Shown: positions 5,957 to 54,377 of the stretch, piece by piece
How the letters are laid out: every line of letters begins with the position of its first letter
How positions within the stretch are numbered: the first letter of the stretch is position 1
Assembly: GCA_007693855.1 (NCBI GenBank)
Contig: RECU01000056.1
Span: forward strand, 1 to 64,000
Direction: 5' to 3'
Length of the DNA: 64,000 bases
DNA from: Gammaproteobacteria bacterium
GTDB taxonomy: Bacteria > Pseudomonadota > Gammaproteobacteria > Steroidobacterales > PWYM01
Made by a program: the position numbers and the translations under genes
The notes under the pieces: generated by a model
What the model saw: only the letters and a program-made list of their open reading frames with translations
Databases searched by the model: none
Told to the model about the DNA's origin: nothing

Positions 5957-6762
5957 GGCTGCCCGCGAGGGCACACCGGCCATGGCCGCGCGGGCCGCGT
6001 CTCGAACACCAGCCCGCGGGCCTCCGCACCACGCAGCAGCGCCAGTGCATGGCGTCCGCGCCGCAAGGGCCAGCAGCCGAGATCGGCATCCGCCAGCGGC
6101 AGGCGGCGTCGCGCCGGGCCGTGCGCCGCGACGCCCTGCGGCGGGACGTCCGGGGCGCGGCGTTGCCGCACGGCCACCGGATGTCCGGCGGCGCGGCAGG
6201 CCGCCAGCCAGCGTGCGCGCAACGCAGCCCCCTGCCGGCCCACCGGGGCGCCGGCCACCACCAGGCTGACCCCCGGGCCCTGCGTCACCGACAGCCCGGC
6301 GGGCGGTTGCAGGCGGCGCGGGCGGCCCGCCCTGCGCCAGCGGCGGCGACAGCCGTGCAGCCAGAGCCATAGTGCCAGGCGGCGGTTGGCCGCCAGCAGC
6401 GGCAGATCGAGCAGTTCGGCGGGCTGCAGCCACGCCCAGGCCTGGCCCTCCCGGGCGACCGGGGCGCCGGCCCAGTCGGTCACCCACCAGAAGTCCAGCG
6501 CGACGCGCCGGCCGGGGTAGACATACTCGAAGGCGACCAGCGGGGCAGCACGCGCCAACGTCAGCCCCAGTTCCTCCTCGAGTTCGCGGGCCAGCGCCTG
6601 GCGGCGACGCTCACCGGGCTCGCGCTTGCCGCCGGGAAACTCCCACAGGCCCGCATGATCCCGTCCCGCCGGGCGCTGGGCCAGCAGCACGCGCCCGTCG
6701 TCGCGCACCAGGATGCCGGCAACGACGGCCAGGGCGCGCGCCTGCCCCCCGGGGGCGCTCAC
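5857..6762 (-). CDS. Nudix hydrolase (MutT-like) with degenerate C-terminal TMP-synthase-like region
   Basis: The first ~130 residues are a clean MutT-type Nudix domain. The box follows GX5EX7REUXEEXGU exactly (GGKREPGE at 45-51, RELEEELGL at 59-67), preceded by LLAQRPAG and GLWEFPGG. Such enzymes sanitise 8-oxo-dGTP. Gammaproteobacterial relatives often carry a C-terminal thiamine-phosphate-synthase-like (TenI) half. Here residues ~150-265 are Arg/Ala-rich and only faintly resemble it (GLSVTQGPG…, GVAAHGPARRRLPL…). The last ~33 residues are antisense to the glycosyltransferase gene, so the domain looks eroded and its end lost. The GTG start at 6762 overlaps the stop of the upstream HDOD gene (GTGA). 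The Nudix call is firm; the extent of the functional C-terminus is uncertain. Confidence 0.82.
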   Translation of the reverse strand: MSAPGGQARALAVVAGILVRDDGRVLLAQRPAGRDHAGLWEFPGGKREPGERRRQALARELEEELGLTLARAAPLVAFEYVYPGRRVALDFWWVTDWAGAPVAREGQAWAWLQPAELLDLPLLAANRRLALWLWLHGCRRRWRRAGRPRRLQPPAGLSVTQGPGVSLVVAGAPVGRQGAALRARWLAACRAAGHPVAVRQRRAPDVPPQGVAAHGPARRRLPLADADLGCWPLRRGRHALALLRGAEARGLVFETRPARPWPVCPRGQPQPQWSRIQGVGRIWRYHLPPRPSRASSGFGLP

Positions 6763-7991
6763 CCGGCGGCGGCGGCCGGCGACTCGGTGGCCGCCGCGCG
6801 GCCCCGCGCTAGCCGGCGCAGGGTGCGCGCGAACTCGTCACTCTCCAGGATCGCTGGCAGGCGCTGCAGCGGCGGGCGGGCCAGGTAGGCCTGAAACTGG
6901 AAGAACTCGGCCACGCACTCGTCGCCAAGGTCGATCTGCCCGGGCTCCTGGATTCGACCCAGCACCACGCCTTCGGCGATCCGCGCACAGGCATAGCCCA
7001 GGGCCAGGCGGGCATCGCGCTCGCCCACCGGGCTCGGCACGCGGCGCACCAGCACCCGGTTGAGATCGCGCACGTCCTCGCGGATACCCTCGGGCAGCTC
7101 CCAGGCCTCCATCAGCAGCTGGCCGATCACCATGGCATTGGCCCCCAGCGAAAACTGCTCGGCGGTCGTGCGTTCGGCCAGGCCAAGCGCCCACTGGCGG
7201 CTTGCCGTCTCCCCGGGCAGCAGCCGCGGCACGACGAAATCGCCGAGGAAGGACAACACCGTCTGCGTCGAGGTGGCGCTGAGATCGCGGATGCCGAGTT
7301 TCGGGGCCAGCGCTTCGACCAGTGCCACGGCGATGGCGCCGACATCGAGCAGCTGCGACTGGAAGCGCCGCAGCTCCGGGTCCTTGCCGGTGAGGGCCTC
7401 TTCCATGGCGAACTGCAACGCCATGTTGCGCACCGCGTTGCAGCCCAGGTAGGTGATCGCATGGGCCACACTGCTGATCGGCGAGCGCAGCCCGTAAAAC
7501 GGCGAGTTGACGCGGCCGATGATCCGCGCGGTCAGCACCGGTTCGCAGACCAGCAGTTCGGTGAGCGCCCGCGGCGAGGCATCTTCCATGAACTCGGGAG
7601 ACATCAGCTGCTGGACCGAGCGCGGCGGCACGGACACGCCGGTCAGGCGCTGGCGCAGACGCTCGAGCTCATCGGGCGCCAGCATGTCGACTTCGAACAG
7701 GTCGAAGGCGAGGGTCGGATGCGCCTCCTCCGCGGCCGCTGGGCCCGCGTCTGCCGCCCCGGCCCGGCCGCCGGTCAGCAGGTTGTCGTACGCCCCGGTA
7801 CTCAGGGCGGCGCGGGAAGACAGGCGCTCGGCCGACACCGGCGCTGGGGTATCCGTGGCCTGTGGCCGGGCCTTGCGCGACGGCGGGCGCGGCGCCTCGA
7901 CGGTGGCCCCGTGACCGGCCCGAGGGCGCAGCAGCAGCCACAGGCCAACGAGGGCTGCGGCAGCGGCGAAAAAAGCGATGGCGGCGTTCAT
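6759..7991 (-). CDS. Membrane-anchored HDOD-domain protein
   Basis: The 410-residue protein begins with one hydrophobic segment (residues ~4-22, IAFFAAAAALVGLWLLLRP), then a Pro/Ala/Arg-rich linker to about residue 90. It ends in an HDOD domain with the diagnostic pattern LLVCEPVLTARIIGRVNSPFYG, followed by ISSVAHAITYLGCNAVRNMAL. HDOD proteins are HD-domain relatives usually lacking the full metal-binding His-Asp set, and act as signalling adaptors in regulation, motility or stress. The anchor would place the domain at the cytoplasmic face of the inner membrane. It lies 85 bp downstream of secA on the same strand and its stop overlaps the Nudix start, so the two are probably co-translated. 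The specific role is unknown. Confidence 0.85.
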   Translation of the reverse strand: MNAAIAFFAAAAALVGLWLLLRPRAGHGATVEAPRPPSRKARPQATDTPAPVSAERLSSRAALSTGAYDNLLTGGRAGAADAGPAAAEEAHPTLAFDLFEVDMLAPDELERLRQRLTGVSVPPRSVQQLMSPEFMEDASPRALTELLVCEPVLTARIIGRVNSPFYGLRSPISSVAHAITYLGCNAVRNMALQFAMEEALTGKDPELRRFQSQLLDVGAIAVALVEALAPKLGIRDLSATSTQTVLSFLGDFVVPRLLPGETASRQWALGLAERTTAEQFSLGANAMVIGQLLMEAWELPEGIREDVRDLNRVLVRRVPSPVGERDARLALGYACARIAEGVVLGRIQEPGQIDLGDECVAEFFQFQAYLARPPLQRLPAILESDEFARTLRRLARGRAAATESPAAAAG

Positions 7992-49719: not shown

Positions 49720-49732
49720 GTTATATTATAAC
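49720..49732. promoter_or_regulatory. Zur-box-like palindrome upstream of receptor 1
   Basis: GTTATATTATAAC is a perfect inverted repeat (GTTATA-T-TATAAC). It matches the core of gammaproteobacterial Zur boxes (GTTATAATATAAC type), is very A/T-rich in a GC-rich background, and lies 58 bp before the ATG of the first TonB-dependent receptor. Zinc-dependent repression by Zur is the natural inference; no zur gene is in the window. Confidence 0.75.
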
Positions 49733-49790
49733 TCCCATTGTCTCCCTGAAGACCCGTGAGCCCATCGCGGGCACCAAGGCCTGCACCAGG

Positions 49791-51992
49791 ATGAACAACC
49801 GCAACCGCCTGGTCCTGACGGTGGCGGCCGTCGCCGTTGCCGCCACGGCCACCGCCGAAGACCGTCCACTCGACGAGCTGATCGTAACCGGCACGGCGTT
49901 CGGCGCACGCAGCGCCGATGAACTGGTCCAGCCAGTGAGCGTACTGCACGGGGATGAACTCGCCCGCAGGCTCGCAGGCTCCCTCGGGGAAATCCTCGAT
50001 GGTATCCCCGGCGTGGCGAACGCCGATTTCGGTCCGGGGGTCGGACGCCCGACGGTGCGCGGCCAGCAGGGCTCACGGGTGGTGGTGCTCGACGACGGGC
50101 TTCCGGTCGCCGACGTCTCCGGCGAGGGCGTCGACCACGCCGTGGCCATTGATGGTCGTGGCGCCGCACAGATCGAGATCTTCCGCGGCCCCATGACCCT
50201 GCTCTATGGCAGCGGCGCGGCCGGGGGCGTCGTGAATGTCGGGAGCTTCCGGTTCCTGCCGGATTTCGCCCCCTCGAGTTTCGCCCGCCTGGACGCCAGC
50301 TACTCGCCCAACGGCCGTGACCGCCAGCTCGACCTGCAGGCCGAGCATGCCCTGCACGAGACCTTTGGCCTGCGTGGCGCCCTCGGTGTTCGCCGCAGCA
50401 GCGACTTCTCCATCAGCGGCTTCCAGGAAATCGACCAGACCGAAGGCCGGCGCGGCCGCCTCCAGAACAGCAGCATCAGCACCGACACCGCCTCGCTCAC
50501 CGGCCTGTTCCGCCAGGACTGGGGCCACATCGGCCTTGGCGGCAGCCGCTGGCGTACCGACTACGGCATCCCCGAGGTGTTCGATCCCCAACGTCTTCGC
50601 GGCGACGGCGCCGACGAATTCGAGCGGGTGACCGCCGATTACGATCGGCTCGATCTGCGCGCCGAAATCCTCGCGCCGCTGCCGGGATTCACCAGTCTGC
50701 GACTCAAGTCCGCATGGACACGCTTCGAGCAACAGGAAACCGAGTTCGAATTCAGCCGGGACACCGGGGCACTCGAGGACCTCGAGGTGGAGGTGGAATT
50801 CGAGAACCGCGAGCTGCAAGGCCGCCTGGACCTGGTCCACGCGCCGCTCGCCGGCTGGCAGGGGGTCATCGGCTTGACCTTCGCGGATCGCGATTTCGTA
50901 GCCGATGTCCCCGACAGCGAAGAGGAGTCGTTCTACATCCGTCCGAACCGCACGCGTACCGTCGCGGCGTTCCTGGTGGAGGAGCGGGCGACGCGCTTTG
51001 GTCAGATCGAGCTCGGCGGGCGCTTCGAACGTGAGCGCAGCCGGGCCGAAGACCTGGGCCGCCTGGCCGACGGTGGCGTCACGACCCCTGACGGCGCACT
51101 GGTCACCCGCCCGGAGCAGCTGCCGACGCGGACGACGACACCGGTGAGCCTGTCAGCCGGCGCCCTGGTGCGACTCGGCGAAGGACATCGCCTCCGCCTG
51201 GCCACCAGCCGCGCCCAGCGCACCCCCTCGGCAGAACAGCTGTATGCCTTCGGGCGCCACGCGGCCGCGGGGACCTGGGAAATCGGAGATCCTGACCTCG
51301 CCCGGGAAACCTACAGCAATTTCGAAATCAGCCTCGAACGCCACCTCGGTCGACTCCGCTACGATCTCACGGTGTTCTACAACCGCGCCGATAACTACAT
51401 CTTCCTCGCCTCCGAGGATGACGGCAACGGCAATCCCGTATTCGTCAACGACATCGGTAACCGCGCCGGCGAAGGTGCCACCGTCGGCTGCGCGCCTGGA
51501 GACGGCGGGCTCTGCCGCCTGCGCAACCAGCTGGTCATCAACGAGCAGGCCGATGCCGAGTTCTATGGCGCCGAACTCGCCGGCAGCTTTCAGCTGACCG
51601 ACGGCGCCGTGCCGCTGACGCTGCATTTCAGCGGGGATCTCGTGCGCGGCCAGCTGCGCGAGGGCGGCAATCTGCCGCGCATCACCCCGGCGCGCGCCGG
51701 CGTCGGTCTGGCCAGTCGCTGGCAAGGGCTCGACCTCCGCGCAGACCTGCAGCGCATCACGCGCCAGAATCGCGTCGCCTCGGCCGAAAGCCCCACGGCC
51801 GGTTTCAACCTGCTGTCGCTCGATCTCGCCTGGGCGCTGCCCGGCACCGGCGCCGAGACCACCGTTTATCTGCGCGCGCGCAACCTCCTCGACGAAGACG
51901 GCCGTCGCCACCAGAGCTTTTTCAAGGACGACGCACCGATCATCGGCCGCGCCGTCTACGTGGGCTTCCGCAGCCAGCTCGGCGGACGCTGA
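49791..51992 (+). CDS. TonB-dependent receptor 1 (putative zinc uptake, ZnuD-like)
   Basis: The 733-residue outer-membrane receptor has a signal peptide (~1-22, ending ATATAED), a TonB-box region (DELIVTG), the plug domain with RPTVRGQQGSRVVVLDDGLP and IEIFRGPMTLLYGSGAAGGV, and a 22-strand barrel. The plug resembles ZnuD-type receptors, and the upstream Zur-like box points to zinc or a zinc complex. The extracellular loops are not His-rich. They contain a Cys-x7-Cys pair (CAPGDGGLC). The protein ends …FRSQLGGR instead of an aromatic residue. It is a tandem paralogue of the next gene. Substrate is inference. Confidence 0.85.
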   Translation: MNNRNRLVLTVAAVAVAATATAEDRPLDELIVTGTAFGARSADELVQPVSVLHGDELARRLAGSLGEILDGIPGVANADFGPGVGRPTVRGQQGSRVVVLDDGLPVADVSGEGVDHAVAIDGRGAAQIEIFRGPMTLLYGSGAAGGVVNVGSFRFLPDFAPSSFARLDASYSPNGRDRQLDLQAEHALHETFGLRGALGVRRSSDFSISGFQEIDQTEGRRGRLQNSSISTDTASLTGLFRQDWGHIGLGGSRWRTDYGIPEVFDPQRLRGDGADEFERVTADYDRLDLRAEILAPLPGFTSLRLKSAWTRFEQQETEFEFSRDTGALEDLEVEVEFENRELQGRLDLVHAPLAGWQGVIGLTFADRDFVADVPDSEEESFYIRPNRTRTVAAFLVEERATRFGQIELGGRFERERSRAEDLGRLADGGVTTPDGALVTRPEQLPTRTTTPVSLSAGALVRLGEGHRLRLATSRAQRTPSAEQLYAFGRHAAAGTWEIGDPDLARETYSNFEISLERHLGRLRYDLTVFYNRADNYIFLASEDDGNGNPVFVNDIGNRAGEGATVGCAPGDGGLCRLRNQLVINEQADAEFYGAELAGSFQLTDGAVPLTLHFSGDLVRGQLREGGNLPRITPARAGVGLASRWQGLDLRADLQRITRQNRVASAESPTAGFNLLSLDLAWALPGTGAETTVYLRARNLLDEDGRRHQSFFKDDAPIIGRAVYVGFRSQLGGR

Positions 51993-52051
51993 AGCCGCGC
52001 GCCAGCAGGGTCGTTCGGGCCTGGGCCCCTGTGCCGGCTTGGAAGTCGGAC

Positions 52052-52064
52052 GTTATATTGTTAC
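52052..52064. promoter_or_regulatory. Degenerate Zur-box-like site upstream of receptor 2
   Basis: GTTATATTGTTAC keeps one full half-site (GTTATA) and a partly matching second half (TGTTAC against TATAAC). It lies 81 bp before the second receptor's ATG, in a short A/T-rich patch. It resembles the perfect site before receptor 1 and may bind Zur more weakly. Confidence 0.55.
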
Positions 52065-52145
52065 TATTTCTGACTTGCAAATCGGCGCACCCGGTCCAGG
52101 GGTGCGGCCTCTTTGAATATCGTCCAAATCCACAGGGAGTGTCCG

Positions 52146-54377
52146 ATGTCGAGGATGATCACCCGACGGCTGCCCGCCGTCCTCGCCGCCAGCGTACTGG
52201 CCCCGATCGTGCTGCAGAGCGCCCAGGCGCAACAGCCCGCCGACACCCGCGTCCTCACCGAAATCATCGTCACCGCCGACCCCATTGGCGGCCGGACCGC
52301 CGACGAGCTGATCCAGCCGGTTAGTGTGCTGCACGGTGACGAGCTCGCCCGCAGGCTCGCAGGCTCCATCGGCGAGATCCTCGACGGCCTCCCCGGCGTG
52401 GCCAACGCCGACTTCGGCCCAGGGGTCGGCCGACCCACCGTGCGCGGCCAGCAGGGCTCGCGCGTGGTCGTGCTCGATGACGGCCTGCCCGTCGCCGACG
52501 TCTCCGGCGAGGGCGTCGACCACGCCGTCGCCATCGATGCCCGCGGCGCCGAACAGATCGAGATCTTCCGCGGCCCCATGACCCTGCTCTACGGCAGCGG
52601 CGCCGCCGGCGGTGTCGTCAACGTCAGAAGCTCACGCTTCCTCCCAGACTTCGCCCCCTCCAGCTTCGCGCGCCTGGATGCCAGCTATTCCCCCAACGGC
52701 GATGACCGTCAGGTCGACCTGCAGTTCGAACACGCCCTCGACGAGGCCTTCGGCCTGCGCGGCGCGCTTGGGCTGCGCCGCAGCAACGACTTCTCCATCA
52801 AGGGCTTCCAGGAGGAAGACCAGACCGAGGGCCGGCGCGGACGCCTGCAAAACAGCAACCTCAGCAGCGACACCGCCTCGCTTACCGGCATGTTCCGCCA
52901 GGACTGGGGACACATCGGCCTGGGCGCCAGCCGCTGGCGCACCGATTACGGCATCCCCGAAGTCTTCGACCCGCAGCGCCTGCGCGGCGATGGCTCCGAT
53001 GACTTCGAACGCATCACCGCCGATTACGAGCGCATCGACCTGCGCGCCGAAATCCTCGATCCCCTGCCCGGCTTCACCACCCTGCGGCTCAAGTCCGCCT
53101 GGACCCGCTTCGAACAGCAGGAATCCGAGTTCAAGTTCAACCGCGCCGACGGCAGCTTCCGCGAAGCCATTGTCGAGGCCGAGTTCCAGAACGATGAGTT
53201 CGACACCCGCATCGACCTGGTGCACGCGCCCATCGCCGGCTGGCAGGGCGTGCTGGGTCTGCAGTTCTCGGATCGCGACTTCTTTGCCGACGACCCGCGT
53301 GGCGCCGATCGGGGCTTCTACGTGCGCCCGAACCGCACGCGAACCAGCGCCCTGTATCTGGTCGAGGAACTGCGCACGGGGTTTGGCCGTCTTGAATTTG
53401 GCGGCCGGATCGAACGCACCGCCAGCCGGGCCGACGACGTCATCGGCTCGCGCGTCGAGGGCGTCACCCAGGAAGACGGCAGCTTCCTGCCCCTGCCCGA
53501 GCAGCTCGACCGGCGTCGCGACACGCCGCTGAGCCTCTCCGCCGGCAGCATCATCGACCTCGACGAGGCCCACCATCTGCGGGTGGCGCTGACCCGCGCG
53601 CAGCGCATGCCTTCGGGCGAACAGCTCTACGCCTTCGGCCGGCATGCCGCGGCCGGCACCTGGGAGGTCGGCAACCCCGAGCTCGACCGCGAAACCTACA
53701 CCAACTTCGAACTCGGCATCGACCGCCACCTCGGGCGCCTGCGCTACGATTTCACGGTCTTCTACAACCGCGCCGACGACTACATCTTCCTCGCCTCCGA
53801 GGATGACGGCACCGGCAACCCCGTGTTCGTCAATGACATCGGTAACCGCGCCGGCGAAGGCGCCGCCGCCGACTGCGCGCCTGGTGCCGGCGGCCTCTGC
53901 CGCCTGCGCAACCAGCTGGTCACCAACCAACAGGCCGACGCCGAGTTCTACGGCGCCGAACTCGCCGGCAGCTTCCAGCTCGTCGAGGGCCCCGTGCCGC
54001 TGACCCTGCACGTCAGCGGCGACCTGGTGCGCGGCAAGCTGCGCGACGGCGGCAACCTCCCGCGCATCACCCCCGCGCGCGCCGGCGTCGGCCTGGCCAC
54101 TCGCCTGGAGGGGATCGACATGCGCGTCGACTTCCAGCGGGTCGACCGCCAGAGCCGCATCGGCGAGGCGGAGAGCACCACCGATGGCTTCAACCTGCTC
54201 TCGCTGGATCTCGCCTGGCAGCTTCCCGGCACCGGCACCGACACCACGCTCTACCTGCGCGGGCGAAACCTCCTCGACGAGGACGGCCGCCGCCACCAGA
54301 GCTTCTTCAAGGATGACGCACCGATCATCGGCCGCGCCTTCTACCTCGGCTTCCGCACCCAGCTCGGCGGACGCTGA
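52146..54377 (+). CDS. TonB-dependent receptor 2 (putative zinc uptake, ZnuD-like)
   Basis: This 743-residue paralogue of receptor 1 has its own signal peptide (~1-31, ending SAQAQQP) and TonB-box region (LTEIIVTADP). The plug is nearly identical to receptor 1 (…RPTVRGQQGSRVVVLDDGLP), and the C-terminus is almost the same, ending FRTQLGGR. Differences concentrate in extracellular loops, for instance DDPRGADRGFY against DVPDSEEESFY. The Cys-x7-Cys loop is kept (CAPGAGGLC). ATG 52146 has AGGGAG well spaced. Both receptors look intact, so they may differ in ligand or affinity. Confidence 0.85.
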   Translation: MSRMITRRLPAVLAASVLAPIVLQSAQAQQPADTRVLTEIIVTADPIGGRTADELIQPVSVLHGDELARRLAGSIGEILDGLPGVANADFGPGVGRPTVRGQQGSRVVVLDDGLPVADVSGEGVDHAVAIDARGAEQIEIFRGPMTLLYGSGAAGGVVNVRSSRFLPDFAPSSFARLDASYSPNGDDRQVDLQFEHALDEAFGLRGALGLRRSNDFSIKGFQEEDQTEGRRGRLQNSNLSSDTASLTGMFRQDWGHIGLGASRWRTDYGIPEVFDPQRLRGDGSDDFERITADYERIDLRAEILDPLPGFTTLRLKSAWTRFEQQESEFKFNRADGSFREAIVEAEFQNDEFDTRIDLVHAPIAGWQGVLGLQFSDRDFFADDPRGADRGFYVRPNRTRTSALYLVEELRTGFGRLEFGGRIERTASRADDVIGSRVEGVTQEDGSFLPLPEQLDRRRDTPLSLSAGSIIDLDEAHHLRVALTRAQRMPSGEQLYAFGRHAAAGTWEVGNPELDRETYTNFELGIDRHLGRLRYDFTVFYNRADDYIFLASEDDGTGNPVFVNDIGNRAGEGAAADCAPGAGGLCRLRNQLVTNQQADAEFYGAELAGSFQLVEGPVPLTLHVSGDLVRGKLRDGGNLPRITPARAGVGLATRLEGIDMRVDFQRVDRQSRIGEAESTTDGFNLLSLDLAWQLPGTGTDTTLYLRGRNLLDEDGRRHQSFFKDDAPIIGRAFYLGFRTQLGGR

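Follow-up and report, generated by a model that had tools for sequence, protein, structure and literature searches.

A tandem pair of predicted ZnuD-type zinc receptors behind putative Zur boxes in a little-studied gammaproteobacterial genus

In Neisseria ZnuD, the zinc ion is held by the residues Asp99, His100, Glu340 and His499 (PMC4557270), and in Acinetobacter baumannii ZnuD1 and ZnuD2 are both induced by zinc chelation (PMC3516566). The boxes of ZnuK, ZnuL and ZnuM in Caulobacter were verified by gel shift and lacZ, and the verified Zur boxes of this organism include degenerate ones that share the core (PMC4176598). For E. coli Zur, the skeleton RNNNYxxxRNNNY was found (PMC4219657), and the yciC/zigA GTPase is listed as a frequent Zur target (PMC6103462).

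Here, we analyzed a window of 64,000 nucleotides (the whole stretch of DNA examined, contig RECU01000056.1 of assembly GCA_007693855.1) with two TonB-dependent receptor genes in tandem. They very probably represent a tandem-duplicated ZnuD-type outer-membrane zinc receptor, with both copies repressed by zinc-bound Zur; repression, zinc as the substrate and TonB dependence are what we infer for the pair. A sequence-only reading had described two intact tandem receptors with near-identical plugs and C-termini but different outer loops, the first behind a perfect and the second behind a half-degenerate palindrome, and this description holds. Receptor A (49791-51992, plus strand, 733 aa) and receptor B (52146-54377, plus strand, 743 aa, counted from ATG; an in-frame TTG upstream, at 52113, is also in the ORF list) are both whole and share 76% identity in the protein alignment. 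They differ at 14 of 131 positions in the plug and at 0 of 23 in the last extracellular loop, while loops L4-L6 are 65% different and the remaining loops 15%. Within the region of the pair, an Rfam search gave 0 matches and a promoter scan, uninformative as such, 0 sigma-70 matches. A weak terminator-like hairpin (52034-52049, plus strand) lies directly before the second palindrome, such sites being no more numerous in this region than expected by chance.

The first palindrome, box 1 (49720-49732), is exactly GTTATATTATAAC and is separated by 58 bp from the start codon of receptor A. Box 2 (52052-52064, GTTATATTGTTAC) precedes receptor B and has two mismatches. In shuffles of the second intergenic stretch, a site with at most two mismatches appeared in only 0.1% of cases. 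Searching the genome for palindromes, we found the exact form GTTATANTATAAC twice, compared with 0.0001 expected copies (3.28 Mb, first-order Markov model). The two perfect boxes lie before receptor A and before a DUF1826 gene followed by a ZigA-type zinc GTPase (679 bits against a cut-off of 600). A genome scan with a Zur weight matrix, which had been proposed together with the sequence-only reading, was carried out with a matrix made solely from sites of relatives, the own genome being excluded from its building, and covered sites with up to two mismatches from GTTATANNATAAC. Box 1 ranked first and box 2 fourth among the own-genome candidates. In its core, the box agrees with the Zur box described for gammaproteobacteria, AATGTTATAWTATAACATT (PMC3516566).

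The palindrome was also examined in the same-genus genomes (G001 was taken as L034, G002 as L033 and G003 as L035; alignments). All four carry a Zur-like gene that is closely preceded by a box (GGTATAATATAAC or GATATACTATAAC) and followed by merC, two of the four have DUF1826-zigA with a perfect box, and three have znuD with a box. In the sister species (L034), the same tandem is found at the same place, after rapZ and before a patatin gene; the box of its receptor A (L034 5869, GTTATACTATAAC) has the same position and perfect form as box 1, and that of its receptor B (L034 8195, GTTATACTGTTAC) shows the same deviations as box 2. Since there are two perfect copies in the genome against an expectation of 0.0001, the second one standing before DUF1826-zigA, and since zur, zigA and znuD of relatives have variants of the box in front of them, we assign both palindromes as predicted Zur boxes. 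A further near-perfect box, GTTATAAAATAAC, was seen at L027 7354-7366 (G000 C41:73353), where an uncharacterised ORF of about 200 aa begins (6709-7380, minus strand).

The two forms of the box raise the question of whether they set different induction thresholds, with receptor B released earlier by its weaker site. This would be an addition to the duplicated, Zur-repressed receptor and not an alternative to it, and we consider it possible but on balance rather unlikely. The two deviations in box 2 and their retention in the sister species speak for it, as does the induction of Bacillus subtilis Zur regulons in waves (PMC5007448). On the other hand, box 2 retains every position needed by E. coli Zur, namely the RNNNYxxxRNNNY skeleton, which was kept in 19 of the 19 sites examined, a count partly forced by the search pattern; all deviations at position 9 among these sites are purine for purine. 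Moreover, Zur affinity in E. coli could not be predicted from matrix scores, the best-scoring site being among the weakest binders (PMC4219657), and operator affinity did not explain the order in which early and middle genes are induced in B. subtilis (PMC5007448).

A Zur protein, on whose presence the sequence-only reading depended, was looked for in the genome. Three FUR-family genes were found, one Fur and two Zur-like paralogues. For both paralogues E. coli Zur is the best NCBIfam match; the scores of 83 and 93 do not reach the cut-off of 167, the ORFs used being short at the N-terminus owing to contig ends and start choice. One of them, searched against the PDB, matches Zur-type chains. 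In agreement with that reading, neither zur nor an ABC importer nor a metallochaperone is among the ORFs listed at 44-60 kb, and all three exist elsewhere in the genome: an AztABC-type zinc ABC importer, a COG0523 GTPase and a WD40 protein lie on contig C7, adjoining one zur gene, behind GTTATATAGTTAC, and zinc-chaperone GTPases are present on contigs other than that of the pair. The zur paralogues are located at the ends of the G000 contigs C5 and C7 (L026, L025). Their first 55 bp are identical, with 97% identity over 108 bp; past this 5' part they diverge (proteins 78% identical), and both contigs end there, a pattern that would fit a duplication, or the gain of a zur-azt island, as the cause of the break in the assembly. 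C7 might also be misbinned, its GC content being 61.9% compared with 68.6% in the window.

In the relatives, the inner-membrane part of the route seems to differ between members of the genus. A search for ZnuA-family binding proteins found none in G002, G003 and G004, which are drafts of 87-94% completeness. The same three genomes all have the Zur-like gene, and G002 and G003 a znuD-type receptor. G001 contains a ZnuA-family binding protein, a different one. An ATPase encoded divergently from zur in relatives was examined as a ZnuC candidate and proved to be FtsE/LolD-like.

To classify the receptors, we combined domain models, structure comparison and ligand positions. The Pfam plug and barrel domains are above cut-off in both. 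Models were predicted with a mean pLDDT of 86.7 for A and 85.9 for B, and the model of A has 22 strands, with short inner turns alternating with longer outer loops. ZnuD is the top NCBIfam model for both receptors (A 266 bits, B 289 bits); the cut-off of this model, NF038289, is 950 bits and seems to be set for close ZnuD orthologues, a narrow group. Judged by their sequences, A and B are thus relatives of this narrow group and not members of it, the model being of the kind 'exception'. For receptor A, the best solved structure in a sequence search of the PDB is ZnuD (4rdr), and the best Foldseek match of its model is 4rdt (E 8.6e-49, TM 0.87 by target length).

The four ligands D99, H100, E340 and H499 of ZnuD correspond to D115, H116, E316 and H490 in A and to D125, H126, E326 and H500 in B, and all four positions are among the 24 invariant columns of a multiple alignment of 35 related receptors drawn from the class. 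E316 was placed by this alignment, in which the Y-x-H-x-E of relatives is aligned with F-x-Q-x-E, the His of the motif being replaced by Gln in this pair. Taken together, the best curated match of both receptors, the best solved structure for A and the four zinc ligands invariant in 35 receptors classify both as ZnuD-type by sequence and model.

It had also been proposed that the loops lack the His-rich stretches of classical ZnuD and that the ligand may be a zincophore. The first point was borne out, as loop 3 contains 0 His in both A and B, but the second was not supported. Import of a zinc-chelate instead of the free ion, with the missing His-rich loops reflecting such a ligand, is improbable, because all four buried ion ligands are invariant. 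The loop 3 His count ranges from 0 to 9 among the 35 ZnuD-like receptors, most of them having none or few, so that a loop 3 without His is no indication of a zincophore, and His-rich clusters in this loop were not taken as defining the ZnuD type. Should any receptor here serve a metallophore, the better candidate is encoded at L025 283-4451 (contig C7), where a PepSY protein, a siderophore-type TonB receptor and a DUF1636 protein follow one another downstream of the Zur-like site GTTATAACGTAAC. With the ion pocket intact, the zincophore was rejected as the leading idea. Haem or iron receptors behind a Fur or other site are more improbable still and were rejected on model scores and box context: both receptors have weaker matches to haem receptor models, ZnuD itself was formerly annotated as a haem receptor (PMC4557270) and the genome has a Fur gene, but ZnuD scores at least 160 bits above all haem models and the palindrome, with its Zur-type core, recurs before zur and zigA.

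With Zur-like proteins present, boxes that match the Zur sites of relatives and receptors of the ZnuD kind, the duplicated zinc uptake route under Zur put forward in the sequence-only reading is retained as a prediction. At low cytoplasmic zinc, Zur would leave the boxes and both receptors would be made. Each would bind external Zn2+ in a buried Asp-His/Glu/His pocket between the plug and the barrel loops; using TonB energy, the zinc would be released to the periplasm, where the AztABC-type ABC importer could take over, and the COG0523/ZigA chaperones would act in the cytoplasm.

The history of the pair is best seen in L4-L6. In these loops, the A orthologues differ by 28% and B differs by 24% from a single-copy relative, another same-genus genome with only one receptor at this place, compared with the 65% between A and B. 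By this sequence comparison, the ancestral loop type is the one seen in B, and A is derived, with L4-L6 loops that would have changed and then remained so in two species. Between A and B, nonsynonymous and synonymous proportions stand in a ratio of 0.59 over alignment columns 321-480, compared with about 0.2 for the plug and its neighbours. In the C-terminal part, the synonymous distance between A and B (0.42) is like that between the A orthologues (0.45), although the duplication predates that split, which fits gene conversion in the flanks; tree supports for the mosaic are moderate in part. The pocket loops and the plug seem to be kept alike by purifying selection and probably by gene conversion too. 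The class-wide survey scored two candidates per genome, and tandem copies elsewhere are not reliably countable from it.

Given the strong difference in L4-L6, the copies may have diverged in substrate handling and possibly face different zinc sources. That copy A now serves a different zinc source or complex, with a new L4-L6 set kept in two species and one pocket type behind two outer filters, pocket and plug being held alike by selection and gene conversion, is a tentative idea that we regard as doubtful.

With this predicted pair, ZnuD-type zinc uptake would also be found in a gammaproteobacterial genus that has received little study and is represented here by metagenome-assembled genomes. 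As a system it is nothing out of the ordinary, being of the already known ZnuD type, and its modest twist is the loop divergence, which makes it a neat test case: two natural paralogues that share one pocket but carry different loop sets could reveal what outer loops do in zinc receptors, and with two conserved forms of the box it becomes possible to test whether the form of a Zur site sets the order of induction.

Among known systems, Caulobacter crescentus likewise has several Zur-repressed TonB receptors, ZnuK, ZnuL and ZnuM, with GTTAY...RTAAC boxes (PMC4176598). However, it is alphaproteobacterial, its receptors are encoded by the separate genes CC1517, CC0214 and CC0663 and are not tandem paralogues, and znuK adjoins an ABC system, unlike the pair described here. 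A single strain of A. baumannii also has a pair of ZnuD-type receptors with Zur boxes, ZnuD1 and ZnuD2 (PMC3516566), but they are not in tandem and one is plasmid-borne. Neisseria meningitidis ZnuD (PDB 4RDR, 4RDT, 4RVW) resembles the pair in its TonB receptor fold, the four zinc ligands and the Zur box in front; at 26% identity, the receptors analyzed here differ from it in the Gln that replaces the His of Y-x-H-x-E, in a loop 3 without its two His-rich clusters and in their arrangement as two tandem copies.
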